From NCBI RefSeq assembly GCF_964355755.1, contig NC_092673.1:3849001-3913000 (forward strand): a DNA stretch of 64,000 nucleotides. The letters run 5' to 3'. Under the pieces are notes generated by a model that was not told the origin of the DNA, searched no databases, and worked only from the letters and a program-made list of their open reading frames with translations. Origin of the DNA: Antedon mediterranea. Lineage: Eukaryota; Echinodermata; Crinoidea; Comatulida; Antedonidae. The first letter of the stretch is position 1, and each line of letters starts with the position of its first letter. The translations under genes and the position numbers were made by a program. Positions 13,901-40,300 of the stretch are shown in pieces.

Positions 13901-16900
13901 ATGGTTTGAAGTTACTGTAAAGTTAAAATTAAGAAAGCAAAACATTTGGATACTGTACCGGTTACAATTAACTTTTTGAAAATTCATGTTTTACTAAAAT
14001 TTCCTTTTAATTTTACACTATTTATATGATTTTTCTTTTACAGGTTTTACCTTGTTTAAACAAGAGCGGCCCTTACCAGTTGTTTTTCTTCGCCAATTTA
14101 CCAGCATTGGGTTATAATACATACTTTATTCAAAGTGGTTACCAAGACAGCAACCATACCCATGATTCACAGATGACATCATCTACAGCGTATAATAATT
14201 TGAAGCAGACGACGAATTCAAAGCAGACGACAAACTCCAAAAGAAGAAATAAATATACAGAGAAAACTATGGCTATTAGTAATGACTGTTATGCGATAAC
14301 AGTGGATAATACAACCAACTATTTAGAATACATTAAACTAAAGTAAGAGTTTGTTATTGACATTTATTGATTGATTGATTAATTGATGGATGGATCAGAT
14401 TTAAGTAATTGACAATTGATTAATTATTACTTATGTTATTAAAGCTATATAGATATTTACACTTTTTTTTTTCAGACAATCTGGAAAACAAATAAAATTC
14501 CAGAACTTATTTATGGAATATGATGCTCATTCTGATGTTGCCAACGGACAGGTTTCAAACAACTATATCTTCCGACCAAAAGCAGATGCTCAGGTTGTAG
14601 GTCAAAAGGTCAAGTTGGATGTGGTTCGTGGGCCTCTAGTCCAGGAAATACGACAAAGTTTTTATGAGTAAGGTTTATTACATTTTAGAAATAATTAGTG
14701 AAATGCCTACCATTTTTTTTATAATTATTGGTTTGTTTTAGCCTTTTTCAGGACAAACCAAGATATGTTGTAACTTTCCGTCTCTATACATTACCTGGTT
14801 ACCATGACAATCTGATCTGTAACCGCATTGAAGTGGATTTGCAGGTGGGACCTCTGAAGATCAATAAAGAGCTTATTATAAGGTATTATTTAATATATCA
14901 TGAGCTAGGTTCACATTCAGAGTTGATCATGATCAACTTAAGATGTTTATTTGAACCTGCAGCAGAATTGATTCTAAACTTTATGTAGATATGTTCACAT
15001 ATATTGTTGATCATGATCTACTTAAGACGTTTATTTGAACCTGTAGCAGACTTGATTCTGAACTTTATCTAGATATGTTCACATTCATTGTTGATCATGA
15101 TCTACTTAAGACGTTTATTTGAACCTGTAGCAGACTTGATTCTGAACTTTATCTAGATATGTTCACATTCATTGTTGATCATGATCAACATACAACATTT
15201 TACTTGAACCAGCAACAGAATTTTTAACTTAATATATCGTTAGATAGGGTTCACATTCAGATTTACTTGCAATGGTTTATTTCAGCACTCATTTTAAACA
15301 TGATAAAGCATTATCCAAAACAAAAACATTAGTATTCATTGCCTCATTAGACTTAAATGGTACAGGATATTTACTAACACAATTTAGTGTGAAATTGTAG
15401 TCATTATAGTAAAATATTATTCACAATAGTTATAATAGTAAATACTTGAATGAACGAAACTTATAGTAGAGAAAAACTATTTGAGTATAATATAAAGAGC
15501 AGTACATGTACTGCAGTATGTTAACATATTCAAATTGTGATATTAGATTTTTTTTTTTTTTATTTTTTTTTTTTTAACCATATTTAATGAGGGTGATCCA
15601 TCCAGCTATTGCTGATCATTAGGGACCCTCAGAGGTTCACAAGACAAACATATACACAAGATGCTCTACATAAACAAAGTCTTATTACAAGTCTTTGGGA
15701 GTGGAGTAATTTGGTCCTTAGAAAAAATCCTGACGGGATGTGACGGGACTTGAACCCAGGACCCTTGGACTGGTAGACAAGCATCATAACCACCAAGCCA
15801 CAACTCCACTCAGATTGTTAGTACACAGTTAGTATAGGTTAGATTTTTAATTTTAATGATATTTGGTTCTAGATTTACAACAAGTGTACATAATTCTCGT
15901 ACCATCCATACGGATGAAAATGCGTATCAGATGATGGAAAGACGCCCTCGTGATAATGTCTCGGAACCAGTGGCTCAGGTATTCTAAATAATTATTATTT
16001 AGGACATTTCATGTACGCTTCTTGGTGCTAAAGTCTACATAGCAAATGTCCATTTTGACTATTTCCATTTCATCTGGAACAATCCTGTAAATTGCATGCC
16101 ATCTGAGGATCAGCATGTTAAATTATTTTTAGACATGCTCAGATGATCTGTTATTGCGAACAACAAATTATAATATAGCTTTATATATTTTAATTTATTA
16201 GTATTTTTCTCTTTTTTCAGAACTATTACCCCATGGTTTCCACTGCTTTTATTGAAGATATCAAATCAGATATTCGTTTCACTGCACTAGCAGAAAGAAC
16301 CCATGGTGTTGGTAGTATTTCTGATGGTAAAATGGAGGTATGTGGTGGTAGTGTACTGTATGAAGCTCTGTCTACACTATCAAACTTTTGTGATGTGCCA
16401 ATATATGGACATAATGATATCATATCACTACCCCATATTTAAGCATATCACTAACATATTTGGACACATCAAACTTTTTTTGCCAAACTAGTTTGATAGT
16501 GTAGACAGAGCTTTAATACGCCATTCACAGCTTTTTTAAACAGTAGTTCATTCAACCACAACTGTATCAATAATAATTATTATATTAACAAATGCTTCAG
16601 ATAATGTTACTTCGTCGACTTGTCAACAATGAATTTGAAGACCATAATTTCAACCTAACGCTGAATGATACCGTGATTGTCCGTCCTACACTTTGGCTTC
16701 TGCTTGCCAATAGTAGCCTCTCCAGTCTTTTGCAACATCAGGCCAGGCTGCAGTTAGAGAATCCCCCACTAGTGTTGGCTGCTGATTACAGGCAAGAAGA
16801 GCAATTGACTAGTTTGTTTCATTCTAGGAAAGGTATGTTAAAATATGTGCATTAACAAATTGGAAGTCGTTAAGGGCATTGTATTTGACACCCAATCATA

Positions 16901-18383
16901 TTGTGTGATTGTGTATTAAGCTCTGTCTACACTATCAAACTTTATGTGTGTAAGTGTGATGTGCCCAAATATGGTAGTGACATGCTTAAATATGGTAGTG
17001 ATATGACATCATCATGTTCATATATGGGCACATCACATTCTATTTATAGAATGAGCAACATTAATTAATTAATCACTTAAATATATAAATGAAAAATTGT
17101 TTTACACTTTTTTTTGTAGATGTAACAACTCATAGATTCATCAACAAATGGCGCCAGCTTTTTAATTCAAAGTTTTCCAGCATTACATGTGAGCTCCCAG
17201 CTAACGTACATTTGTTAACATTAAAGACACCAGGTTGGAATTATGATGATAACCATTCAAAACATGTGAATAATACTAAAATTAATGTGGAATTTGGAAA
17301 AGGTAGGTACAGGTAGTAGTTTTGAATGCTATATAGGCCTACTTTAATATTTATTATAATTTTATATATGTTTTCATTATGCAATTGGGACTGGACCGTT
17401 TTAGAGGTGTTTACCACCTGTTTGTCCCTTCATCCTTCACTAAATATGTTTTGTCTATGTTTTTTTGGTATGTGCATATTTAGTGAGAAGTTAAATAAAT
17501 AAACAAATTGGTATTTGTGAGATATAAAAAATAAAATGATAATAACCAAATTATTATAAATTATATTCTTCTCTCTGCTGTCTTTTACTGTTCCATCCAA
17601 GTACAGGCAACAAGTTAATTACTTTCTGAGATACACTTTAACTATAGGTGACACAATAGGATAGCATTGCATAACTGCTCACAATGTTATGCATTAGCAG
17701 AGAAGAGTGAAATCACTGTTCCCTGGCATTACAGATATGATAAAACCTTGATATGTAAAATTTCTTAAACCCATTGATTCTTTAATGAAGTCTGCAATCA
17801 TGTGATCTTCTTTTGCAGGAGAAAAAAGAAAAGAGCAGACGACGGAGAATTTCAAAAGGGTCATGGTACGATTTCATCATTTGTTTGCTGAAGGAAAACA
17901 TTCTTCAATGTCAAAACCAGTTAGCATAGATATACAAGTGAGTACCAATTATAAGCCTATCTTTGGGTTTTAAGCTCATCTTTAAGCTCATCTTTAAGCT
18001 CATCTTTAAGCTCATCTTTATTTGTTATTGTTATATTTCTAAATAATTTATATAATTTTGTTCGTAGAAACTGCTGGTAAAGTTTGGAAAGATATCGTCA
18101 ATTGATGAGCGTAGTTTAACTGGAATTTGGTCAAAAGGAGATTTAAAACGTTGGAAATGGAACACAAATACCAAAAATAACAAAAGCAATGAATTATGTA
18201 AGTAATTAATTCCATTTAAAATGTTATTAGTTTTGAGTAAATTTGCTTGAATTTTGTAAAAGTATATAACCTAATAAACAACATTTTATTTAATATTTAG
18301 ATCACCGTGGTGAAGAATTGAGAGGGACAGAATTCACAATATCTCCTCAAGACATCAGAACATTTTTTGTTAAATTCACATAA
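7951..18383 (+). CDS. MAN2B2: MAN2B2-type (epididymis-specific-like) lysosomal alpha-mannosidase, GH38, complete
   Basis: Glycoside hydrolase family 38 enzyme that removes alpha-linked mannose from N-glycan remnants in the lysosome or secretory path. Nineteen exons: 7951-8130, 8930-9070, 9552-9663, 9984-10156, 10511-10626, 11771-11948, 12309-12507, 12710-13084, 13681-13835, 14044-14342, 14476-14667, 14742-14882, 15873-15978, 16221-16337, 16601-16832, 17120-17302, 17819-17937, 18068-18197, 18301-18383. All join in frame to 1076 residues. Signal peptide in the first ~32 residues; the Met at 7978 is an alternative start. Zinc-site motif PHSHMDVGW (H50, D52), nucleophile in SWHVDPFGA (about D165), second metal/active-site motif [12 protein letters not shown] (about H435). 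Strings such as [30 protein letters not shown] and LTLNDT follow human MAN2B2, which is about 1009 residues. The extra length includes a Lys/Thr/Asn-rich insert in exon 10. Complete and apparently functional. Confidence 0.97.
9220..9522. mobile_element. PIF/Harbinger-like MITE split by a 137-bp insertion
   Basis: Left terminus after TAA (9217-9219), right terminus degraded near 9522. The MITE is interrupted at 9334-9470 by unrelated sequence that ends in a GAATAAATGAAATC...-type tail. The break is flanked by CATATTTGGG and ACATTTGGG, which look like a target duplication. Confidence 0.75.
9334..9470 (+). mobile_element. LINE 3'-tail-like insertion nested in a MITE
   Basis: 137 bp with CCTGGCTTTTTG and AATAAATGAAATCAGTAAATC near its end. 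A similar CCTGGCTTTG...GATTGAATAAAATAAATAAA segment occurs at 34060-34145. 5'-truncated non-LTR retroposon tail is the likeliest reading. Confidence 0.5.
11600..11706. mobile_element. PIF/Harbinger-like MITE, 5'-truncated copy
   Basis: Right half only: CCCATATATGGACATGATGA, the two ACCATATTTGGGC-type repeats and a damaged right terminus. Lies in the intron before the mannosidase exon at 11771. Confidence 0.7.
12058..12216. mobile_element. PIF/Harbinger-like MITE, complete copy
   Basis: 159 bp, TTA duplications at 12055-12057 and 12217-12219, standard termini. In the intron between mannosidase exons 6 and 7. Confidence 0.85.
12544..12581. mobile_element. PIF/Harbinger-like MITE, right-end remnant
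   Basis: Only TTTTTTGTCAAACTAGTTTG and the degraded terminus AAACAGAGCT remain, 37 bp after the donor of mannosidase exon 7. Confidence 0.55.
13157..13410 (-). repeat. tRNA-derived SINE, family B
   Basis: Minus-strand copy of the element at 33510-33675 and 26325-26532. Shares CATACGCATCCAACG, CGCCAATTACAGGATGGATA and the decayed box B region (GTGAACACTCAAACTTGGAA). In mannosidase intron 8. Confidence 0.65.
14909..15260. repeat. 84-bp tandem repeat array
   Basis: Four units start at 14909, 14993, 15077 and 15161, with a partial fifth at 15249. Each begins GTTCACATTCA and contains the palindromic GATCATGATC and a TTTGAACCTG block. The first unit begins 27 bp after the donor of mannosidase exon 12. 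Intronic. Confidence 0.8.
15549..15812 (-). repeat. tRNA-derived SINE, family A
   Basis: Poly(T) at the left is the reverse-strand poly(A) tail. Reading the minus strand from the right end gives a tRNA-like head with box A (TGGCTTGGTGGTTATGATGC) and box B (GGGTTCAAGTCC). Same family as 25785-25990 and 53233-53502. In mannosidase intron 12. Confidence 0.75.
16364..16512. mobile_element. PIF/Harbinger-like MITE, complete copy
   Basis: 149 bp with intact termini; flanks TGA and TTA, probably one mutated duplication. It starts 26 bp after the donor of mannosidase exon 14. Confidence 0.8.
16919..17043. mobile_element. PIF/Harbinger-like MITE, 3'-truncated copy
   Basis: Left terminus intact after TTA (16916-16918); similarity ends after GGGCACATCACATTCT. 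In the intron before mannosidase exon 16. Confidence 0.7.
17971..18020 (+). repeat. 12-bp tandem repeat
   Basis: Four copies of AGCTCATCTTTA in the short intron between mannosidase exons 17 and 18. Confidence 0.8.
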
Positions 18384-18425
18384 ACAAGCAATTATAAGTA
18401 AAAGCAAATTAAAGACATTATAGTA

Positions 18426-18575
18426 CAGTCAACACCTTTGGGCCGGCCAAATAAGTCTGGTTTTCCGGAAAGTCTGGTATTCGGAATGTGTTTTTAATGG
18501 TAAAAATAAATAAATAAGTCTGGTATTGGGAGAGTTTCTGGTTTTCAGAGAGTCCGGTATTGAGAGAGTTGACTG
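18426..18575. mobile_element. pogo/Tigger-like MITE, copy 3, just downstream of the mannosidase stop
   Basis: About 150 bp, CAGTCAACAC...GAGTTGACTG with TA flanks; shorter than the other two copies through internal loss. It starts 43 bp after the mannosidase stop codon. It contains AATAAA at 18505-18510, a possible poly(A) signal, although an ATTAAA at 18408-18413 is closer to the stop. Confidence 0.7.
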
Positions 18576-18689
18576 TATTCAAATAATGAAGAGGGGGAGA
18601 ATTAAAAGCCTGGTTGTTCCAAGCCTCAGAGCCTCGTCGAATAGAGCAATCAATCTTTCACTGGATGAAAATAGTGTTCCCATCCAACA

Positions 18690-18905
18690 AACAAAAATGG
18701 CTGAGCAGTTAAGGCAGGGGCGCTGTTTACCGTACCTAAAGAGCCAACAATATCAGCATGGGTTCAAGGCCGACTTGCTCCTAGTTCTGGTGGAGCAAGT
18801 CTTCTCGGACTATAGGTCCAGTGTACACAGTTTGCCCTTGTAAACCCAGTTCATCATTCGAGACGAATAACCTCTGGTTCACAAAATAGCCCCTGTATCA
18901 GGAAT
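18690..18905 (+). repeat. tRNA-derived SINE, family D, diverged copy
   Basis: Head GGCTGAGCAGTTAAGGCAGG resembles tRNA box A and GGGTTCAAGGC resembles box B. Body shares GTTCTGGTGG..AGTCTTCTCGGA, TAGGTCCAGTGTACACA and TTCGAGACGA with the copies at 48284 and 52626. Confidence 0.65.
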
Positions 18906-19743
18906 CCGCCGCACTCATCTTGAATAAAATTACTACTAGGCCATTCAAATTGGCTGTGGAGTAGAGCAGCACAATAAGGATTGGTTTTAACCAGTCTAGT
19001 GAATTGCATTAGCACCCTCAATTCTTAAAAATGGGAAAAATAATGTATGGATCATAATACAAAATCAACCAATCAAAAGGCAAGGATAGTCTGAGGTTTG
19101 TTTTATAATAGGCTCTATTTGATGAGTATGCAGCTAGTATGGATATTATTCACACCTGTAGTAAGACCATTTCAAAGGTCATTTAAAACACAAGATGACA
19201 CGTTTTAAAATGTGTATCAGTAACATTTATTTGAACACACCCTTTATGAGGTAATTAGTGTCATCAAACATAATTAATCTAATATGTTGAATTTACAAAT
19301 GAGTAAACACTGTAACATATGGTATGGTAGTCTCTATGACTTGACAACAGTCTACAAAATTACTTTTTATTATGGTAAAATACTTTTTTAGTTGTACAGT
19401 ATTTTATTTTTATTGTTAAAGTGATACGTGTTTTCACATTGTTATGTTTAATTCTCTTCCCCTATGACATTCAAACAACATCATAACAAAATCTTCTGGG
19501 AGGAGTTGATAGCCACACTGACTTCTCTATTCTGTTGAGATAAATTATTAATAACAAGTCAATATGATATTTTGTATGTTTTGAATTTTTGTATAATTTG
19601 AACATCGGTAAATCACAAACAAATATTCCCAAACATGTTTGTTTTGTCCATTTTGGTTAGGATTCCACCATACTTTATTTGGAGTAGACCGGCCAAGACA
19701 AAGTATTGGATAAGTGTTTTTATAAATATCCCTTACCTTTTGT

Positions 19744-22700
19744 TTACATAACAACATCACCATCCAGTTCCTCTACTGCAAAATATGATTTATGGTTGAA
19801 TATTAACTTATTGAAGATTAAGAATTGTATTTAGAAGTTAATTGAAATTTGTCAAATTACTTATACAAATATATAAAATACCAAATTACTGATAGCCACA
19901 TAGTAAATTATGCATAGTAGTGTAACACTCGTTTTGCTGAGACAAGGCTTATACATAATACAGTATTAACAATGTCATAATTCATCTTTTAAGTAACAAG
20001 TCTATCAATAAAACCTTGGCTGTTGGCTGTGTTCGTCTAAAGTTTGTGTTCGTCTAAAGTTTGCATCATAAAAAAACATTCAATTACAATAACATTTGTT
20101 TTTTTGATGTTTTTCCTCTCCATGTAGTCTGGGATAAATATTTTGGCAGATATGGCGTTTCATACGTATACTACTTGATTTTGTATTTTCAGACAAAAAT
20201 CGCGGTCGAAATAAAAACAAATAAATTTAAAAAAAAGATAATACAGACTTGGGGCAAGTCTACTCTCCATGTTGCTCTACATTTACTTACATGTTCGTTT
20301 AAGTAACTGTCCACCTCCGTCACCATCAGACCCAAACGAGTACATCCATGAATCTGATCCAATGTCTAAATTGAACAGAAACTAATTCAAAAATGTATAG
20401 ACATGGTGATGTCATATCACTACCATATTTGGGCACATCACACCTTTTTTGTCAAACTTGTTTGATAGTGAATTAAAATATAATTATTTTATGATCTCCC
20501 TCTTTCGTGAAAACAAGATATTATGAATACTAGACTACTTTTTCAATTCAATTCACTTTTAAATGATAATATAGGCCTAATAAATAAGAAATAACATAGA
20601 CAAAAAACAATAAATCTGGGGGAAAGGAAGAAGGCAAGATCCCAGAAAGATGCAGGATCTTGAGTCGGCCTGCCTGGGACACAAAACAAAGGGACAAAGT
20701 AAAGCGGGACTCGGAACAGGACAAATCAACAGAAAGCAACAATGACCAGTCCCCAATGACCAAAACCATGATGATCACCCATATACCCCCTCCACCCTTC
20801 AAACCCTCCCCATTTTTAGGCTAGCCCCATTATTCTATATTCACACTTTTACAATACTTACTATCTTCTTCTGGGCCAGCTGATTAAAACGAGATACACA
20901 AAGATAAGTTTTAATGTTTTTATTTGTTTTTAAGCAAGAAATTTCAAAATGTGCTGTGCTGTGCTTTTATACTTAGCATGCTTGTAAACTTAGTGTTATT
21001 TTTTTATTATAATCGGGTGTTTTTATTAAAATATAAAAGATAAATAGACGAAAGTAATTCATTGATCAATAAATCTAAAAAAAGGTGGAAAATATGAATA
21101 TATTGGCAATGTGTTATTACTATGAAAAAACAACAAATAGGTATATAATATTGTGCTCTCATTCATCATTCTGATCTGTACTTTTTTCTTTTTTTTTTGC
21201 TTAATATATGGTATAGGCCTAACTAATTATTGTTAACATTTTTAAAGTGCAAAATATGAATATATTAACAAGGTGTTATTACTATAAAAAAAAATAGGTA
21301 AGATAATATTCTGCTCTTATTCTTCTTCCCTGTCCCGTAAGTCAAGTTAAGTATAAAAAAATTCCAAGAGGCTTTATTTATTAAACCATTTGTTTTATCC
21401 TATTGAATAGAGTTTGAAAACTTAACTTAACTTTTACGTAAGCAAACCATTGACTTAAAACAAAGCAATCTGAACTCTGGTAGAATAATTAATGACAAAT
21501 AAATAGGTTTTGTAAAATATCTGAAAATGTACTATATGAATCGAATATATTATTGCTCCTATCTTCCAAAGGCAAATTACTGAAAATTACAATGCAGGCT
21601 GGACCTCAATAGAGATACAAAATAAAATAAGCAAAAGGCTAAATCAAAACGATAAAGTAAATATACTTATACACTTGTAAATATGCAAACATAAATGTGT
21701 GATTCGAATGAAAGCGTGCTGTTAAAGATATAGGATTCTTCTGAAGAAGACATATGTAACAAGTTATGTTGAATTGTGTGCTGTAAGCTCGTTAAAAACA
21801 TTTTATAAATGTGTTAATTAGAGAAATCGAATAAATGATGGTATTAAATAAGAGTAATGTTATCATTGTCGTGTCATATCGTCGCACTAGTCAATGGAAA
21901 GTCTCTAATGCGTATCAAACAACTTTGCGTCAGGAATTTTAGTAATTGGTAAGATGTTTGCCCTACTCTGACTTATACATTGAGAACACTTTGAATTTGA
22001 GGGAGACTCAGTTTTAGGTGACCGATATTTTGTCCTGCAGAAAGGATTTAAATTATTAAACCATCTCATCTGATAATATTCTGTACTACTAGTACTACAA
22101 TACAAATACAATAATATCATTTTAACTTACATGATCCGTCCGTGTTTCCTTGTTGCAACAAAATTAATAACATTTTATTAACCATGGTGAAAAGAAAATA
22201 GTAGTAGGCCTATGTTTGATCAAGTTAGATTCTTTAAATTTAAAATACTTTTATAACTATAGATTGGTGTCGATTTATAAGATTGTGGGCAAATTGTCGA
22301 AATAAAATAACTGATGTCGTTTTCAAATACTACATAATAATTACTATTACTACTATTACATAACATAGGCCTAATCTATTTTAAAAATAAGCATAAATAA
22401 CAATGAGCAATGTAAAAAAGGAATACGCTCCTAATTCCAGCGTACGTAATTAAGCTCTGTCTACAACTAACTGTATGTGTACAAAAATGTGATATGCCCA
22501 TATATGGACATGATGATGTCATATTATTACCATATTTGGGCATATCACTACCATATTTGGGCACATCACTCTGTTTTGTCAAACTGGTTCGATAGTGTAG
22601 ACAGAGCTTTAGAAAAAGAGATTAATAACTTTCTCTTAACTTCAATCAAGCAAAATCAAGGGAGAGATTTGATCACGTCGAATAATGTGATTGTTGCTTT

Positions 22701-24054
22701 CAGACTCCTCAGATAATAGGTCGAGTTCACACATGCAGAAAAAATGTTGTCTCCGGTTTAGAGAGCTATGTCACCATATGTTTGAGGAGAATGTTCGATC
22801 ATTTTCTTTTTTACTAAAGTTAATGGATTCGTTGTCATTATAATAACCATCATTGTCTTTTTGTACATCAAACAACAACTATTAAAAGTACAACTAACTG
22901 GTTGCGTTCTCATGTGTGATTGATGTGTGAAGATTATATAGAAGTACATGAATTAATGATGCAATCCTGATAAGAACGAAATGAGAACAAAATGTTCGCT
23001 AGTGTGTAAATTTACTATGTTTCCGAATTTCAATTCGATTATCTGTTTTTGTTCAAACTTTATGAAAATTGTCCACGCGCACCTTTTGTTGGATATTGTC
23101 GAACTTTGTTAGTGAAACAGGAGAATTACGTTTTTTTCGTCCGAATTTCAATGGAATATAGGCCTGTATCAAGCATATTGTTGTATATAAAACTTTAGTT
23201 ACCAATAACGTCGTCTTTAAAAATTTGACTATTTGTTCATTTTGTCGCCTCCAAATTTAGAATTTTGCACTTATAGGAATGTATCGGTACATATAGACCT
23301 ACATCTAAAGTTTGGTAATGTCTATTTCGTTCGTACACCACTACGGTTCAAATTGGAAATTTGTAGGCCCCTTTAATTGTACAAGATACATATAGGCCTA
23401 AACTTAAAAATACAAGTATTTAGTTGCTTTATGTAGCCTACATACCTTCACCAATAGAAGCAGAATTCGTTAGTATGAATGCATTTAATAAACACACCGT
23501 AAACAATAGAGCAAGTGCCTTATTCATAATTGCTATAGAAAAGAAGAAGAACATACGGTATACAAAATAGGCTACAATTACACATCAATACAATATAAAT
23601 AATAGATAGTTACACTAATGATAAATGCATTGCGCACATAAGCCCTTTCCTATAATTCTGCCCTTTTCCAATTACATTGGCCTCCAAGATTCAATTAATG
23701 TTGTGTTTCGTTGGTAAAAATATGAAATAAAATACAAAATCGTGGCCAACTTAAAACCATCATCCTAATTATAGGATCCAGATATTGAAAATCCTAAGGA
23801 ATGCTAAGCGTCAATTACCGGTACATGTCACTCCACGGTGAGGTAGTAACACTTATAAAACAAAGTTCGCCAACTATTTTAAAAAAACAGGCCTAATGTC
23901 CGAATGTGATCAACAGAGTTATGAGTCACTAACTCTCTAAAAATAAAAATTATTTTCCAATGTTCCGGTAACTTACCAAATAAGATGTATCGTTGCTGCC
24001 GTAGAATTAAAGTCGTATTGTAAAATAAAGTCCATTTCAAATACAGCTTTTATA
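19744..24054 (-). CDS. Small secreted protein / putative peptide precursor assembled from microexons
   Basis: Not recognised by name. Reading the minus strand: TATA box TATAAAAG (24054-24047), 5' UTR exon ~24025-23977 ending at donor GTAAGT, acceptor after a long pyrimidine tract at 23533-23534, then coding exons 23446-23527, 22131-22148 (18 nt), 20862-20879 (18 nt), 20291-20365 (75 nt) and 19744-19775 with stop TAA. AATAAA follows at 19679-19674. All junctions are phase 1, giving 74 residues. Residues 1-24 form a signal peptide (MNKALALLFTVCLLNAFILT...). The mature part is acidic and Gly/Ser/Asp-rich (EGNTDGS, SGPEED, NIGSDSWMYSFGSDGDGGG). A dibasic KR follows QLL, then TLEELDGDVVM at the C terminus. 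A precursor cleaved at KR is possible, but the residue before KR is Leu, so no amidated peptide is predicted. A donor-like GTAAGG follows the stop, so a 3' UTR intron may exist. Each internal exon could be skipped without a frameshift. Confidence 0.55.
20397..20470. mobile_element. PIF/Harbinger-like MITE, partial copy
   Basis: Central and right-internal part only (GACATGGTGATGTCATATCA, ACCATATTTGGGCACATCAC, TTTGATAGTG). Lies 32 bp upstream, in transcript sense, of the 75-nt exon at 20291-20365. Confidence 0.65.
21580..21665 (+). repeat. Dispersed ~100-bp repeat (family E)
   Basis: Same block as 59398-59515: GGACCTCAATAGAGATACAA, then AAATAAAATAAGC and AAATCAAAACGATAAAGTAA. Intronic in the small secreted-protein gene. 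Confidence 0.55.
22453..22608. mobile_element. PIF/Harbinger-like MITE, complete copy
   Basis: 156 bp, TTA duplication at 22450-22452 and 22609-22611. Between exons of the small secreted-protein gene. Confidence 0.85.
24047..24054 (-). promoter_or_regulatory. TATA box of the small secreted-protein gene
   Basis: TATAAAAG on the minus strand, about 70 bp before a strong GTAAGT donor at 23976-23971. The spacing leaves a ~50-nt noncoding first exon if transcription starts about 28 bp downstream. Confidence 0.5.
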
Positions 24055-24370
24055 TGTATGTGTAAGAGCGGCAAGACGCTCCATTACTTTTGTTATTACT
24101 ACTACTTAATACCCATGCATAATCATCAAGTCATTAATGCAAAGTTTATGATTGCTTCGTTGTGTATGTATATTCATGTGTAATTATATAGAAAATTGTC
24201 ATTTCATGGGTCATTTAACTTAAGCCTATTTTCGCCCCGATATACTTTAGTAAAAACATCATGTAGGTCAAATCAAACACTCTCCCGAAATTTATAATAG
24301 TTCTTTATTGTGTAAAATGCTAACATTCAGTTCCTGATGTATCGATGATGCTGGTATTATAGACCTAATT

Positions 24371-24476
24371 TGGACATAATGATGTCATATCACTACCATA
24401 TTTGGGCATATCACTACCATATTTGGGCACATGACACTTTTTTGTCAAACTATAGTTTGATAGTGTAGTCAGAGCT
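24371..24476. mobile_element. PIF/Harbinger-like MITE, 5'-truncated copy
   Basis: Starts at the GGACATAATGATGTCATATC block and runs to an intact right end followed by TAA. Upstream of the TATA box of the small secreted-protein gene. Confidence 0.7.
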
Positions 24477-25373
24477 TAAAAACGGTACGGTAGCTATTAG
24501 CAATAGACAATATCATTAAGACATGGTACTACTATCCTTTAGTTTCTTTTATCCATATCTCAGAACATCTGGCGGCAGTCTTTCTAAACCTCATTCACAC
24601 TGATACCGAAATCCGACGAAAACTTAGGTTACGGTTCAGGCGTTTACTCGAACGTTTTAAAATCCGAAATGTGATCTTTTCTTGAAAACTGCATCAATTT
24701 TCACGATTTATTCGGCCATGCCACCGGGAGTGTGAACAGCTTTACATCCAGTATTGGTAATCATTTATATAGGGCAGCACCATGATCACCGTCAAACCTC
24801 ATTTATGTAATTCCTCAACATGATGCTAAATAGTATGATGGGTTCTTCAATTTGTATTTATTCCTTTCACATCAAAATGCACTTTATAATTAACATCTTC
24901 GATGTTTCGTTGTTTTATGATAATTGCATTTTTAATAACAGTAGGTTTTATGTGGTAAACACACAACTAATGATGTATAAAATTGTACGAACATCACACA
25001 CTAATCGTACCATTGCCTATTGGGACACTTTACAGACACCTATGTTCATAAACAAGTTTGAGGTTGGCGTAGGAATCACATCAAAATGACCAATGTGGTA
25101 CCGGTATGTCTGGATCAATCCGTTTACGAAGATCCTACTTAAAATTCCTCCGCACGTAATGCATACTTCCCGATTGTTTTGGGTGCGGAATTAAAAACTG
25201 AAATAAAAAAGAATATTAATTATGCGTTGAATTTAATTAAAATGTAGTATATGCCTAATTATTGTATTTTTCCAATATATGTATCGTAATTTAATTTAAT
25301 GTATTGTTTCTTTTGTACTCCGTCGTAATTACGTTCTTTGTGATGCAAGCAGTGTTACGTGGGTCATAACTTA

Positions 25374-25552
25374 AGCGTGGTTCCCACTAGCGACGCAACA
25401 CAAGGACGTAACGCAACGCAAGTGAATTGACCAATCACAAGCGATGGCTTATTCGCTTGTGATTGCTAACTGTATATAACTTCGCTTGTCATTGGTTAAA
25501 ACGCTTGCGTTGCGTTTACGTCCTTGCGTTACGTTCTAGTGGGAACCAAGCT
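25374..25552. mobile_element. Second PIF/Harbinger-like MITE family, 179 bp
   Basis: Termini AGC(G/T)TGGTTCCCACTAG in inverted orientation, flanked by TTA at 25371-25373 and 25553-25555. The arms extend ~65 bp with ACGTAACGCAACGCAAG and CCAATCACAAGCGA matching their inverse. Single copy in the window. Confidence 0.75.
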
Positions 25553-25784
25553 TTAATTTGCATTTACGGTCTATTATGTAAATTACTACCGGCAGGACGT
25601 GTGGCACAGCGTCAAGTTCAAAGCGACATTTATCTACTTCAAGAAAAGAAATAAGAATGCTTGTGGAAGAATTGATATTTAAACAGACAGATAAAAAATA
25701 AAAAATTATCATAGGTAAGCAGTCCGTCTTTTGGTAAACATATTGAAGTTTACAATAGAAAGGCAAATTTCAGGAATATAAAAT

Positions 25785-25990
25785 TGTTGTTTTTTTGTTT
25801 TTAGGGAAATTGGTGGCGACCTTGTTCACAAGACAAACATACACAGAAGATGCTTCTTGTCTTATTAGGCCTACAAGTCTTTGGGAGTGGAGTTGTAATC
25901 TGTCGTTAGAACAAATCCTGACATGTGACGGGACTTGAACCAAGGACCCTTGGAGTGGTAGCCAAGCATCATAACCTCCACTTGGAGCAG
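25785..25990 (-). repeat. tRNA-derived SINE, family A
   Basis: Reverse-strand copy: CACAAGACAAACATACACAG, CAAGTCTTTGGGAGTGGAGT and an inverted box B (GGGACTTGAACC) as in 15549-15812. Box A region partly lost. Confidence 0.7.
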
Positions 25991-26324
25991 CATTGTGGGT
26001 AATAGTGGCTGGATGATGATGAATAAATACGCAAAAAGAAATAAACGGAAACTGGTAGAGATACCGTCTTTAATATTTAATAATCATATTATTATCAAAT
26101 AATATTCACACGATCAAGCTTCTAAAATATGTTCTTTCTAGTCAACCATGTGATTCCAAAAAAGGAAACACTTAAGGTTGACAGAATGTCTCCACATTTC
26201 GCTACAATTCTTCTCTGCAAACCTAATTTTACTGAAGAGTTTTAATCGCCATGCAAACCTTTAAACAATGCACACTTTATATCATGCAAACAAAATTAGA
26301 GGTAGGTAAATATTGCGGTTATAT

Positions 26325-26532
26325 ATTTTTTTATTTAATACGCATCCAACAGCGAGTAGCTCGTCAATTACAGGATGGATAAACTATTTTATAATGTATC
26401 ATGCTTAAAAATTATGTCTCATTTGAGGGAGTGGAGTTGAAAGAGTTGTGAGTTGTTGGTGCTAGGTCAAGATTGAACCCTGGACCTTGGGATTGGAAGG
26501 CAAGCACATTAACCACCAAGCTACAGCTCCAA
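26325..26532 (-). repeat. tRNA-derived SINE, family B
   Basis: Reverse-strand copy with ATACGCATCCAACAG, TCGTCAATTACAGGATGGAT and a complete inverted tRNA-like head (ATTGAACCCTGGACCTTGGG, CATTAACCACCAAGCTACAG). Lies just 3' of the NAT8-like stop codon at 26560 and may form part of its 3' UTR. Confidence 0.75.
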
Positions 26533-26559: not shown

Positions 26560-27222
26560 CTAGAATGTCAAAGTTAGCCTATAAATTGTAAAAATGTTAC
26601 TTGAATGAAACGCTTCTTCCTTGAAGCCATACTTCTTGTACAGTTGTCTGGCTTCATAATTCAATTCAGTTGTCGTTAACGCAACGTGTTTAAACCTGTA
26701 TTTCTTGCTGAACGCCAGTGCGATTTCCAAAAGCTTCTTGCCGACACCCAGACCTTTAGCTTTCTTCTTCACATGAAATCGCTTCAACTCCGCAACAAGC
26801 GGCTTTGACTTCATTTCGGTTATGCACACAGACCCAATAATTTCTCCTTTGTAGACTGCTAATTTATAACAACATCTCATATTTTCTAAGTGTTCTTTTA
26901 ATCCTTGTCTATCCTTTTTTGTCTCATCTTTTATAAAGTTGTTAGAAAGACGAATCAGTGTCAAATATAACATAAAGCAATAAAAAGAAAATGCTCCAAG
27001 CGTATATATTGTCGATCGACTTCCAGCAAAAACAGCACAACAAAAAACAAATGCAGGCATCAGAAATTTTAATGTTTTCAATAAATACACAACCGCTCTG
27101 AATGAAACAAAAACAGATTTTTCGCCTTCAACAAAAAGCACATTGGCTTTTTCAAAATCGTTTTCCTCCATGTCTCGTATCTCTAACTCTTTCTCATCCA
27201 TTTTGAAATACCAAGACCACAT
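26560..27222 (-). CDS. NAT8-like GNAT-family N-acetyltransferase, membrane-anchored
   Basis: 220 residues in one exon. GNAT enzymes move an acetyl group from acetyl-CoA to an amine; vertebrate NAT8/NAT8-like proteins sit in the ER membrane. A hydrophobic stretch at about residues 43-91 (YLLKTLKFLMPAFVFCCAVF and the following segment) matches the membrane anchor of that family. The acetyl-CoA loop is seen as ELKRFHVKKKAKGLGVGKKL (about 147-166, R/Q-x-x-G-x-G/A type). The C-terminal ARQLYKKYGFK (about 193-203) is the usual family ending. Met1 (27222) or Met8 (MDEKELEIRDM) could be the start; Met8 has the stronger context (A at -3, G at +4). An acceptor (AG at 27280-27281) lies upstream, so a noncoding exon is likely. 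The exact substrate cannot be read from sequence. Confidence 0.85.
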   Translation of the reverse strand: MWSWYFKMDEKELEIRDMEENDFEKANVLFVEGEKSVFVSFRAVVYLLKTLKFLMPAFVFCCAVFAGSRSTIYTLGAFSFYCFMLYLTLIRLSNNFIKDETKKDRQGLKEHLENMRCCYKLAVYKGEIIGSVCITEMKSKPLVAELKRFHVKKKAKGLGVGKKLLEIALAFSKKYRFKHVALTTTELNYEARQLYKKYGFKEEAFHSSNIFTIYRLTLTF

Positions 27223-28394
27223 TTTGTCAGATTCTTTTCAGTCCGGTTTGACCAAGTTATCCCTACCAACGTTTCGTACCTAAAAATAAAATATGATTAA
27301 AAAAATATTGAATTAATCAATCAATACTTTTTTTTATGAATAAAATTTTAGATGAACAAATACAATTTGTTAGCCGGTCCCTCCATCCTAAGCATGTGAC
27401 CAACCATGGACCAACCTTACAATTAGGCCTAAGCCAAGCCAATAATGGATGGAGTCAAAGAACTAGGCCTAGGCCTAGTAGGGAGGGTTTGTGGAGAAGC
27501 ACCCCCCCACCCCGGCCTACCCATCCTAACATACAATGCGTACGGTAGTCCTAGTCTAGGCCTAAAAAATAATATCAATTTCATAAATGTTAAAACAAAT
27601 GACCTAAGTTGAGAGTTTATAATTACAATAATTTATTATATTTTAGTAATTTTTTTTAACCTGAAAAGTGACTTTCTTCAACAAAACATGAATGAGTTTT
27701 TTGTTTCTTGTGTTGAAGTTATTGTGTAGTACGCCCTCAATATTTTAAAAACGCCCTCTATTTTATTCTGGACCCATCATATCAGAGAGAAAAAAACGGC
27801 ATGCTAGGTAGGTTTAGTATAAGAAAAACAGTATTACAACACAAGTTTCAGTATACTTAGGAGATATTTTACATTTATAATAATATTAATTATATTCGAT
27901 TATAGATTATAATTTCTTTATAATTTGAATTGATTCTTCTCTGATGATCTTCCCAGTAGGTCGATCCACCTTTTTTTAGAAGCTTGAGAGGGCGTATCTA
28001 TCAAATCAGTAATCGCGAAACCATTCGAGTGTGTTACTTGCTCCAGTGATGGTACGGTAAAGTTTATTAGTAGGATGTTTGACACCTACAGTATCGCTCG
28101 GAATGTTGTAGCTGACGTAGATCTTGGATTGTTTTGAGGAGTTTTCTTCCACCATGGTTTGTATGTTGTGTAACACCTAACAGTATTATCATTTTTAAAC
28201 GTTGAATCTTTATTCAGTTGATTTATTTCTGCGATCTCTTCGTATGGTTTGTTGACAAACAGCGCGGCGGCTTCGATCAACTCTGCTGAGCCGAGTAGGC
28301 TGCTTCAAATGAACTTCAAGTGTGTGTGTGTGACAGGGTGATCAACACACATACATCCGCTTCTTTTTTTAGGCTGCTTTGTGCTATTTTAACT
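27223..28394. promoter_or_regulatory. Divergent intergenic region, NAT8-like (-) and novel secreted protein (+)
   Basis: The genes face away from each other over ~1.2 kb. The interval holds an acceptor for the NAT8-like 5' UTR (27279-27281), a patch of AGGCCTA-type repeats at 27425-27565 and CGCCCTC-type motifs near 27730-27765. Promoter function is inferred from position. Confidence 0.4.
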
Positions 28395-31300
28395 ATGGTT
28401 TATGTATTTCAAATCTGGGCTTCTTGCCTAAGGACGGTAGTAGTACTTCTAACAATTTCTGCTGTCGGATCATATCCACATGAAAATTATAACCGTTTTC
28501 TTAATAAACGGGCAAACCCCAATGCCAGAATGCAACCTCGAAGGGATCTTGGGGGAATGATGCCAAATGCAAAAGGGGATGTTCGGAAAGTCATGCCTCC
28601 AATGGGAAATGGGGAGCAAATGGGCGCTGGTGCTAAAGGACATAAAAAACCACAAGGACATGCACCTCCGAAACAACCCAAAGTTCAGTATGAGAAAGTT
28701 ATGTATCGCGAAGAATTTGATGTTTCATATAGGTGGACAGAAAACAATAGAGTACATTTTACTTGTCCTAGAGGAAGTTATATATCAAAACTTTCATATA
28801 ATTTTGGCACAGGAAGCTCTCCTGTTAAGCCACTAGGGCTTGGGCCAAGTTTATCAGACATATTAACTCTTAAAGACAAGCTTCAATTCGGCCTAAAAGA
28901 AGATAAGTCATATATAACATTCCTACGACATACATCTGGTAAAAGTATAGATTCAAATTCAGAGTTGCTAAAAAACATTGATGGACTTCAGAAAAGTTTG
29001 TTAACAAGAACTGGTTGTGATCCGATAATGTTTTGTCTTGGGCATCAAACTTGTCTTTTTAAGCTTACCGTAGATATATGTGCAAACGATCCAGCACCAG
29101 GGAAAAGGAAAGCGTTAAATATTAAAGTGACGTGTTCTAAAGACAGTACTCTTGTGAACTACGCAAAAGATACAAAAGAATTTGAAGTTTTACGTAAAAA
29201 GGCAGACGAGGTTATGTATATTGTGTATGACCAAAATGCCTCTTGGGAGACAACCAGTGTTTTAGAATTTATAATTTCGAGCGAAGAGGAAATTTTTCAG
29301 AGTGAATGCCCAAGTCCGAAGGAAGCCATTGATTTTGGGTAAGGAAAAGATCTTTTTATATGTTTATGTACAGGTATAATAACAATTTTACAAGGTATAG
29401 TATAGTATATACTGTAGTAAATGAAATACACTTTCCCTTGATTGATTCAGATTTAAATAAAAGGAAGGATTTTTTCCTTGATTGTTTTTCAGAATTTGAA
29501 ATTTGACGGTATTTTACTGTATTTAAAACAATAGTTAATAACCATTTAATGTATCATTATCAAAGATTATAGTGATTTGTATATCTATCATCATCCTATT
29601 TTAACCCTCTGGTAAAACTGTAGCACAGGATAATCAGTTAGTCAGCCAGATCTATTTTTAGAATGAATAGGATGTATTCTGTCTGTTATAACCATTTATT
29701 TTGCCAGTGTACCTAGTACCAACTACGTAATACTATGTGACTACACAGTTTGAAGATTTGCATACACTATAGTGAATTTATTGGAATATCACATGTCAAC
29801 AATGGGAAGTGTGACGCTATAAATAAAAGACATGTGTGTGCTGTGTACAAAAAAAAAAACCTACAATAGGTGTGAACAAGCCCTTGTTGTTAGTGTTTAT
29901 TACAGTTTACCAGGTACCATAAAGTATTTAAGTAAAGTACGGGTAGTGCATTTAGTAAATAACTTTCAATATAGACAGTATGAACAGGATAGTATTATTA
30001 TGATCTTCTGCTGTATACTAGTAGTGACTCAATAGACAGTATGAACAGGACCTTAGTGTTTTATAGTGTATAGTAGCCTACTGTACTGTACATATAGTAT
30101 TAACTATTATTATGATCTTCTGCTGTATACTAGTAGTGTCTCAATAGACTGTATGAACAGGACCTTAGTGTTTTATAGTGTATAGTACTGTACTGTATAT
30201 AGTATTATTATGATCTTCTGCTGTATACTAGTAGTGACTCAATAGACTGTATGAACAGGACCTTAGTGTTTTATAGTGTACAGTACAATATAGTATTATT
30301 ACAATCCCCTGCTACAGTATATACAGTAGTTAGTAGATATTAGTTACAGTAAATTGTGTGATAAGGAGTAATTATCATTGTTATAGTACTCTATAATGTA
30401 TTATGTACACCACACCTCTATAATGGTACAGTCAATAATGTAACAATAGGTTTAAAAATACAATATTTGTTTAGTTCGTAGTTGGTAGGTAGTTATTCTC
30501 AGCTGGTGTTTAATGATCAACATGCTAGCTATTGAATATACTCTACATAGTCAATAAAATATTTAATAATTATAACCAAAATTGTTTTGAGCTACAGTAG
30601 CTTACTGAAAAGTTTGTAATTTTAGGTGTGTATGACTGATGACTATATTTTAAAATGAAATTATTCCATTAATAATAAATTTTATAAAAAATTTGTGTTC
30701 ACATATTATAGTAACTATATCGTGATAAATACCACAGGATTAATTATAAAATAATTTCATCATGGAATTAACTTTGATGGATTACATTATTGAGACTCAA
30801 GTACAGTTAACGTTAATATACTGTAGTTAATATGCCTACTATTAGTACTACAGTACTTAAAAGGTTTTCATATTGCCTATGCATATTAACTAGGTTGAAG
30901 ATTGAAACTGTAGGTGAATTTGAATATAAATAATAAAGAATATTTTAAGGTTAATTGTCTCTCTATTTTCTAAGTTTAAACTGAATATTTAGCTACTGTA
31001 GGGTACCATGCATGATATTATTTTCTCTATTTAATAATAACAGAATAATGTTAAAGTCAATACATTAGTACTAATAATTGGGCTGTTCACATGTTTCTCA
31101 TTTAAAGACGGGCAGCCACAAAATTATTATCAAGAAAGAACAGCTCATTAAAACTTTGAATAAATTAAGCACTCAGAAACTGAGCGAAATACTTGACAGA
31201 ATGCAGAGAACATATTAAAGATTATTCAAGATTTTAATAAGCTTAACTGCAATTGTAATTGTAATTTTCCTAAATCAATAGGCATGGTCTGATACTGTAG

Positions 31301-37300: not shown

Positions 37301-40300
37301 TATTATTATTATCTTTTAGTATAGGTGGCAACATTGCACAATTATTCACTAAAATATTCACAACATTAAAAATCTACAAAAATATATTAAATTTCGGAAA
37401 ATAAAAGTTTACAGTGTATATTAATATTAAACGTTGTCTGCAGTGCTCTTCATTTGATTATTTTAGGCGGTAATATTGCACAATCATTTATTATATATTT
37501 TTTTAATTTCATTTTTCACAGGAGGAATTTAATTTGTTTATAATATAGGGAATCGTTGAATTTTTATATCGGTTAGTTTTTATTTTAGGTAATGTAAATC
37601 TATTGGGGTTACGTAATCTAGATATATTAGGTCTTTCAGCAGGCAGCATATTACGATGTCTCTCTGACTTAAGGATACCTTCTCCAAATTTTAATGTTAA
37701 TTTTTCTCTACGTTCAGCAAGGCTGGTAATTTTGAGTTGAGTAAGGGCCGTATCATAGCTCTCATAGTCCTGGCCAAGTATAATTTTGCATGCTCGCTTT
37801 TGCAACCTCTCAATTTCATTGGTCTGTTGTTTTGTAATGCTAGAATGCCAAACAACACATGCATACTCAGTCAGCGGCCGAATATAGAGTTGATAAATAC
37901 TTAACATGTCACCAATAGGTGCACTATATCCTCTCAATGCATAAAGAAGAAACATTCTTCTACTTGCTCTAGAGATAATACTTTTGATTTGGATATCCCA
38001 ACCTAAATTGTCTTGTAGCTCAAGACCTAATAATTTCATACTATGTACAGTATCAATTTTTTCACCACTTATAGTAAATTGGGGGTAGTTTATTTGGGAT
38101 TTCATAAAATTTATATTAATAACATGGCACTTCGAAGGCTTGGGTAGCATGTCATTTTGTTTACACCAACAACTCAAGGAATCTAAATGGGATTGAAGTT
38201 CTGATGATGTACTATTATTTTTTATATTAATTATTTCTCCCAGTGTTAGATCATCCACAAATTTCCAACGATTATCAGTGGTGTTACCCGCATCATTCAC
38301 CATAACAGTAAATATGCTGGGTCCCAGTTTGGTACCCTGGGGGACCCCACACGTTATAGTTCTTAGTCCAGAACAATGTCCCTTAAATTTCACACACTGG
38401 GTGCGATTCATCAGAAAACTGCTAATCGTTGGAATTATCGACGGTCTAACACCAGATTCTATCATCTTTGAAATAGCAACATTATGGTTTATCCTATCAA
38501 ACGCAGTTGTGAAATCAACTGTACATAATGTGGCGTAGGTCCCTGGCACATCAATATTGGATATAACCGTATTCAACATATCTACTAAGTAGTGTGTTGT
38601 ACTAGTTCCTCTCACGTTACCATACTGTTTACAATCCAATACTGGTTCGAAATCCGTTTTTAACCATCCCGCTAGGAATGATTCAAATACTCTACCCAAT
38701 ATTTTAGTTAGTGAAATAGGTCGTAATTGGCCAACCATTGTTGGTTTTTTAACTTTAGGTACTGGTACAATTGATGCGGTCTTCCACACAGTTGGAAACA
38801 CCCCTTCGTTTAGACAGGTATTAAAGATTAAAAACAGGGGTTGTGCTATTTCAAAAGAAAACAGCTTAATGAGTTTCACCGGAATATCATCTGGGTGGCC
38901 AGATTTATTGGAGTTTAATTTGTTTAAACTCTTCCAAATTTCTCCATGGTATATTTTGGGGGGTGGTTTTGTAGGCAAGTACGAGGGAAGTGTTTCCAAT
39001 CTGAGTGGTGGAAGCTGGCAACATACTCTTGAGAAATGTTCATTAATTTGTTCAGCCTGTTCTTCAACAGATTCACCATAATTATTTAATTTAACATTGT
39101 CTGACTTCTTGTTATATCCTGTGATGTTTTTAATTGTTTTATTCCATTTACCGGGTTGTGCATTTTTTAGTCCTTCTATATTATCCTTATAATGTTTCTC
39201 TTTAGCTTTGTTAATTTCATACTTTACTTTGTTTCTTAGGCTTCGCCATAAATTTATATTATTAGATCTATATGCCTTTTGTCGCTCATCAATCAATTTA
39301 TGTATGCGATAGTTCATCCACGGCTTTTCATTATTTCGTCGTCGAATTACTTTTTGCGGAAAATGTTCTTCGTATTTTTGTTTTAGTATATTTTCAAGGA
39401 TTTCTGCCATTCTCTCTCCTGATTCTGCCAAATACACCTCCTCCCATGATTCCTGAGTTATCCATTGGCCCATCGATCGAATACAAGATTCTCTGAATGG
39501 CCTTGTGATCAAGGCTTTTGAGGTAGGCTTTTGATATAACCTTTCATCATTCACCAAGTGCCATTATTTGTACCATTACACGAATACAAAACATTCATTA
39601 TTTGTTTTATATAACATCTAGACGTTTTTTTTTCGTACACAAAAATGTTTCAAAAAGTACTATTTAACGATCGTTGAATAGTGCGTACTATTGCACGCCA
39701 TGTGACCCACATTCGTCCAATCAAATGACAGGAATTTATATAGGTGTTATATAATATAAAATAGAACCTCTTTTAAGGGGACATCTTTGGGACCACAAAA
39801 TGACCATTTGATAGCGGTTTCCTCTAAAAAGGTGTTGCGGGGGCCCCCGGCCCCCGGCCCCCCGCTGGATACGCCACTGGCCCCTGAGGGGTTGGCTGTA
39901 TAGTGTTAAAATATTCATTGCCCTTCATTTTGTTTCTCTGTGGTACTGTCCCTTTAATTATAAGGGTATCCTCTAAATAGGGATTGGCTAAAGTGTTACT
40001 AAGACATTGCCCTTTATTTGTTTCAATGGTAACTGTCTATTTAATAATAAAGGTATCCTCTAAATAGAGGTTGGCTAAAGTGTTACTAAGACATTGCTCT
40101 TTATTTGTTTCAATGGTAACTGTCTATTTAATAATAAAGGTATCCTCTAAATAGGGGTTGGCTAAAGTGTTACTAAGGCATTGCCCTTCATTTGTTTCAA
40201 TGGTAACTGTCTATTTAATAATAAAGTATCCTCTAAATAGGGGTTGGCTAAAGTGTTACTACGACAATGCCCTTTATTTGTTTCAATGGTAACTGTCTAT

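Follow-up and report, generated by a model that had tools for sequence, protein, structure and literature searches.

We have analyzed a candidate gene for a small secreted peptide in a 64-kb stretch of the genome of the crinoid Antedon mediterranea (64,000 nucleotides of contig NC_092673.1, here called the window; all coordinates are positions within it). The gene had been proposed on the minus strand in a reading of the sequence alone, which joined a signal-peptide exon to two successive 18-nt microexons, a 75-nt exon and a short exon with the stop codon. The sequence gives good support for a gene that starts near 24.05 kb on this strand and codes for a signal peptide. The best-founded part of it is the predicted signal-peptide exon, together with the TATA box and splice donor upstream. 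For the locus as a whole our explanation, held with modest preference, is a small secreted-peptide gene with signal-peptide, 75-nt and stop exons, into which the 18-nt exons could be spliced as optional cassettes. The splicing of exactly these five coding pieces in one mRNA is a reasonable hypothesis. Of the earlier gene interpretation the start near 24.05 kb is well supported; the exact joining of the exons, and above all the use of both 18-nt exons, is putative.

The predicted signal-peptide exon and promoter

Signal-peptide exons were searched for by four criteria: an upstream acceptor within 60 nt that scores 4 bits or more, an ATG, a 9-residue hydrophobic window with a mean of at least 2.4, and a donor scoring 2 bits or more. 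Exon 2 of the model (23532-23446; all model features are on the minus strand) is the sole match in 128 kb-strand of the window, and 320 kb-strand of background (both strands of sixteen 10-kb pieces) yielded one case, weaker on all three scores. This exon has an acceptor of 6.0 bits, an ATG at 23527, a predicted 27-codon signal-peptide segment and the donor AAG|GTATGT (5.2 bits); its best hydropathy window covers residues 5-13 with a mean of 2.87, a measure of hydropathy only. Upstream lies the TATA box TATAAAAG (24054-24047), followed 70 nt on by the donor of a predicted non-coding exon 1 (24022-23977; TTG|GTAAGT, 4.6 bits), whose 5' end, the presumed transcription start, is placed from the TATA box. 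In the background, TATAAAWR followed at 55-160 nt by a donor of at least 3 bits occurs 0.05 times per kb, which by simple arithmetic gives about 0.03 such pairs expected in the 600 nt upstream. The claim that the model exceeds chance is thus borne out for the signal-peptide exon by its rarity in the background; for the rest it holds only in part, since null chains reach the score.

The proposed downstream exons and the predicted product

The coding sequence would consist of 23527-23446 (82 nt), 22148-22131 (18 nt), 20879-20862 (18 nt), 20365-20291 (75 nt) and 19775-19744 (32 nt). These five pieces, their internal AG/GT borders and phase 1 at 4 of 4 coding junctions agree letter for letter with the sequence-only reading, as does the translation of the joined pieces into 74 residues with one KR; the TATA box, the exon-1 donor after 23977 and the AATAAA at 19679 are likewise present. 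Putative microexon 1 (22148-22131) would contribute G-N-T-D-G-S across its junctions and has an acceptor of -0.5 bits, a UGC at -9 and the donor CAT|GTAAGT (4.9 bits). Putative microexon 2 (20879-20862) would contribute S-G-P-E-E-D, with an acceptor of 2.5 bits and the donor ATA|GTAAGT (1.9 bits). The 75-nt exon (20365-20291, acceptor 1.3 bits) is read in phase 1-1, carries the KR site and is open in phase 0 too. The 32-nt terminal coding part (19775-19744, acceptor 0.8 bits) ends in TAA; if this exon were entered at 19772 rather than 19775, a TAG would arise at the junction, because the 75-nt exon ends in T. Weak acceptors had been conceded for the two microexons. This is right for microexon 1, but of the four downstream acceptors that of microexon 2 scores highest, and the weakness extends to the 75-nt and terminal exons.

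The chain downstream of the signal-peptide exon was scored with our own dynamic programming gene finder. The signal-peptide exon was held fixed, intron costs were set at (6,5), (4,3) or (3,2) bits per intron, the splice matrices were generic metazoan values, untrained, and codon usage came from 1,406 codons of other genes of the window. With the cheapest introns, (3,2), the optimum is exactly the five-piece chain proposed before; at (4,3) the best chain includes 20879-20862 and skips 22148-22131, and at (6,5) it holds neither microexon. The composition of the product is the best evidence for coding in the downstream exons. Of the residues after the signal segment 57% are D, E, G or S, and their net charge is -9. 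In seven of eight runs none of the null best chains reached 57%, and in the remaining run a fraction of 0.005 did so; 0-8% of nulls attained the acidic fraction taken alone, and 0-2% the net charge. This test was chosen post hoc, with the product already seen; at (3,2), nonetheless, the program itself selected this chain as optimal.

Several results weigh against the five-piece chain, beginning with its loss of both microexons at the strictest cost. The score of the best chain at (6,5), (4,3) and (3,2), respectively, was reached by 34%, 18% and 16% of reversed genome segments (n=160), by 32%, 14% and 15% of strictly non-genic segments (n=94), and, when segments with genes were kept (n=160), by 59%, 46% and 46%. 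Two looser definitions of non-genic DNA (n=125 and n=136) gave 30-52% over all costs, and at lenient costs 30-31% and 36-37%, respectively. At the strict cost the best chain is unremarkable, 48-59% of the looser sets matching its score. Markov nulls reached the score in 13%, 1.3% and 1.2% of cases (first order, n=600) or 30%, 6% and 5% (third order, n=300) at the three costs, and a separate set of 200 Markov sequences reached the strict-cost score in 6.5%. The null segments overlap, so that these fractions are not independent. Since null and genome segments reach it this often, the chain score alone is not decisive. In sampling over eight settings the exact chain had a posterior of at most 0.05 in each, low because many similar chains compete. 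The 75-nt exon had posteriors of 0.21-0.89, the terminal piece as given 0.04-0.29, and the signal-peptide donor at 23446 0.17-0.94; with the last competes a second donor, 23498 (4.1 bits), which in a rival chain leads to a phase-0 exon at 23163-23083. The four downstream acceptors score in the range of the 11 weakest among the 31 acceptors predicted for two neighbouring genes, taken to encode an alpha-catenin and a mannosidase, and below 12 of the 14 predicted catenin acceptors; part of these 31 may be mispredicted, most of all those of the mannosidase chain. In favour of the chain, 5 of 14 catenin-gene donors lack a G at -1 before GTAAGT. Between 17.0 and 24.1 kb seven candidate internal exons have a summed splice score of at least 6, and both microexons fall below it. 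On balance the 75-nt exon is plausible.

If the whole model had come together by chance from splice-like signals in AT-rich intergenic sequence, the low score of its downstream part would be expected: the 4.1 kb beyond the signal-peptide exon score 6.1 at the strict cost, against a median of 9.1 for the 160 background segments. Such a chance assembly, which we consider improbable, is at odds with how rare the signal-peptide exon and the promoter-donor arrangement are, and with the composition of the product.

A real secreted-protein gene might also continue into other exons, past 19.7 kb or in a different frame, in which case the 74-residue product would not exist. The model had been ended at an AATAAA (19679-19674), which is indeed present and is one of six AATAAA or ATTAAA within about 450 nt, five more following it. 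What had been overlooked is a donor after the 7 nt that follow the stop (19743-19737; AAG|GTAAGG, 7.3 bits), the strongest scored along the model. Given this donor, the stop-containing exon may end at 19737 and may be spliced on to an exon of the 3' untranslated region. The donor, the two open phases of the 75-nt exon and the low sampled frequency of the five-piece chain (at most 5%) all leave room for other downstream exons, but the composition favours the phase-1 reading, and the main longer alternative, through an exon at 19023-18854, overlaps a high-copy repeat at 18902-18695. Another candidate, at 20673-20557, lies within the repeat at 20746-20579. An extended chain of 125 residues gave a single Pfam match, PF25184, with an E-value of 0.021 and 16.3 bits against a cut-off of 40. 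We regard a gene with other downstream exons as unlikely, if a little less so than a chance assembly.

The microexons are an optional part of the model that we prefer. A search for phase-1 symmetric candidates of 9-51 nt, with cut-offs of our own, found in the 3.1-kb interval only these two and a nested 9-nt variant of microexon 2. About 0.5 candidates with a combined score of at least 7 would be expected by chance and two were seen (Poisson P ~0.09). It is quite possible, in our estimate just short of probable, that the gene really has the signal-peptide, 75-nt and terminal exons and that one or both microexons are chance AG...GTAAGT pairs in a long intron, giving a product of 62 or 68 residues; this overlaps the explanation given above, which leaves the microexons optional. 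Chance pairs would fit the optima at the two higher intron costs and the sampled posteriors over the eight settings (0.02-0.54 for 22148-22131, 0.19-0.94 for 20879-20862). Symmetric exons impose no frame constraint, and exons this short are common in null best chains: 7-35% of these include one or more of up to 18 nt, and 1-20% a pair of up to 27 nt each, whatever the symmetry. A pair of symmetric exons of up to 18 nt each, on the other hand, is seen in just 0-1.2% of null best chains, and both microexon acceptors have long AG-free zones, of 59 and 72 nt. Zones of at least 60 nt are found at 7.8% of null sites, and zones of at least 59 nt at 4 of the 31 predicted acceptors of the neighbouring genes. 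A UGC near the 3' splice site is present at one of the two microexons, with a chance rate of 18%, and lies at -20 to -4 in 2 of the 31; long pyrimidine tracts were not seen at either microexon acceptor. From these data microexon 20879-20862 appears plausible, and the case for 22148-22131 is weak. As marks of the eMIC splicing domain, the weak 3' splice site, the AG-free zones and the UGC are suggestive only, and SRRM3/4-type control is possible. A microexon splicing regulator does seem to exist in the genome: an SRRM_C (eMIC) match just above the Pfam cut-off (E 0.0025; locus L020, contig C3 at about 2.91 Mb) has RS-rich reading frames close to it.

In the explanation that we prefer, a TATA-driven gene on the minus strand, from about 24.05 to 19.7 kb, would encode a secretory precursor of 62-74 residues. 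Its non-coding exon 1 would be spliced to the signal-peptide exon, this to the 75-nt exon with the only dibasic site (KR), and this to the short stop exon, with one or both 18-nt exons includable as in-frame cassettes of six codons. The signal peptide would be removed, at a place that is assumed, and the remainder cut at KR, giving two acidic peptides: one of 27-39 residues, strongly acidic and with neither amidation nor cysteine, and a C-terminal one of 11 residues, TLEELDGDVVM. The KR (residues 62-63) is a candidate dibasic site; KR, RR or KK is present in 19-47% of null chains as well. Transcription, exon use, processing and any neural or signalling role we infer from the sequence. The product is best read as a lineage-restricted acidic secreted precursor, perhaps neuropeptide-like. 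A further possibility, which we rate as quite remote, is that it is a crinoid-specific secreted peptide in which two SRRM3/4-type 18-nt cassettes lengthen the acidic N-terminal part in neurons, so that microexon splicing would act on the mature peptide and not on a synaptic or cytoskeletal protein.

No family had been recognized for the 74-residue product, and it has no match in Pfam or NCBIfam. Among known structures in the PDB three NEQ131 sequences matched at E 0.022, which we take as chance, and no Rfam family reaches its gathering score in 17000-26500, so that an RNA gene was set aside. In the genome searched (G000, 354 Mb; contigs C1-C11 of 22-41 Mb each, C12 of 0.57 Mb) the product, the 75-nt exon, 101 bases around microexon 1 and the joined 237-nt cDNA match only this locus, in a search for paralogues or retrocopies that scores only the best candidates and in which 18-nt exons alone are too short, and which may therefore have overlooked distant copies. 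For the known echinoderm neuropeptide families and PCNP2-20, the product was compared by eye with the peptide sequences printed in section 36 of the crinoid survey PMC9793003, and none matches it; this says little, because the survey used a 75-residue minimum in translating the data of two of its three species, which would exclude 74 residues. Six fragments of the product were absent from the literature searched, where, among the matches listed, microexons and neuropeptide precursors are named together for schistosomes only.

Surroundings, repeats and other frames

The model lies in an 8-kb gap between two genes. To its left a plus-strand gene from about 8 kb, presumably a lysosomal alpha-mannosidase-like gene, has a frame that stops near 18.2 kb, the gene-finder chain running on to 18.8 kb; to its right Pfam identifies a GNAT acetyltransferase on the minus strand (26563-27237). 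The candidate gene would be convergent with the mannosidase-like gene and run in the same direction as GNAT. Farther left, at about 0.5-7.1 kb on the minus strand, reading frames and the gene finder outline what we take to be an alpha-catenin-like gene. A perfect 84-bp tandem duplication (15003-15170) lies inside a predicted mannosidase intron, and the first 30 nt of a third copy, from 15171, are 83% identical.

The introns of the model contain high-copy repeats, which the sequence-only reading had passed over, at 20262-20133, 20746-20579 and 22615-22452, with an additional copy at 20395-20478; no model exon overlaps any detected repeat. The 130-nt repeat at 20133-20262 has copies 95-98% identical on 10 of the 11 large contigs, among the best 40 candidates scored, and on this sequence evidence is a recently active short element. 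Two more high-copy repeats lie at 18432-18577 and 18695-18902; the sequence around the former starts with CAGTCAA and ends with TTGACTG, inverted ends that by eye resemble those of a DNA transposon. A plus-strand reading frame at 28299-29342 codes for 347 residues. Close to its first ATG a hydrophobic run is visible by eye, and its only domain match, to SUEL-lectin (E 0.15), stays under the threshold; it could be a further orphan among secreted proteins. A minus-strand frame of 684 residues at 37509-39563 has a reverse transcriptase domain and is probably a LINE-type element.

Elsewhere, the genome encodes the 17-residue peptide GLFPTGGMDPLGASYFT, identical to the A. mediterranea PCNP4 given in the available sections of PMC9793003. 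This match by itself points to a crinoid, probably Antedon, and supports the assignment to echinoderms implied by the sequence-only reading. It lies in an open frame of 463 residues (L018:343-1734, minus strand; contig C3, about 158-159 kb), which also holds 16 copies of (A/S/G)FPGSGGMDTLGxxYFxGKR. In the same sections AmedPCNP4 is a single peptide with no relatives, and no pedal peptide/orcokinin (PP/OK) precursor is reported for this species. The repeats fit the features described there for PP/OK peptides, namely a Phe near the N-terminus, an Asp-Pro/Thr-Leu core and an aromatic residue near the C-terminus, and PCNP4 may therefore be one piece of the PP/OK precursor so far missing in Antedon.

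Comparison with known systems

The predicted gene resembles the SALMFamide genes, which have one intron before the start codon and another after the signal-peptide exon (PMC9793003, available sections); it shares these intron positions, the small precursor, the N-terminal signal peptide and the dibasic site. It differs in the phase of the intron after the signal-peptide exon, 1 here and 0 there. The candidate also lacks an amidation glycine before KR. With the schistosome micro-exon genes (MEGs) it would have in common a signal peptide, a secreted product and tiny symmetric exons that can serve as in-frame cassettes, but very small symmetric exons make up most of the coding region of a MEG and 36 of 225 nt here, and MEGs appear restricted to platyhelminths, according to the available sections of PMC4350168.

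Microexons that depend on eMIC are described in the available sections of PMC8797185 as having a weak 3' splice site, a long AG-free zone, a nearby UGC and longer pyrimidine tracts. Here the weak site is seen at microexon 1, the AG-free zones at both and the UGC at one of the two, but the longer pyrimidine tracts at neither; in flies such microexons have short flanking introns, compared with 0.5-1.3 kb here (PMC8797185). A secreted peptide precursor would, in our judgement, be an unusual host for an eMIC microexon. Small precursors that are spread over tiny exons and have no amidation sites can drop below the length cut-offs of neuropeptide surveys, here by a single residue (75 versus 74), and if transcripts confirm the gene, similar ones may be routinely overlooked. 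If the microexons are real, microexon splicing would shape the sequence of a secreted peptide.

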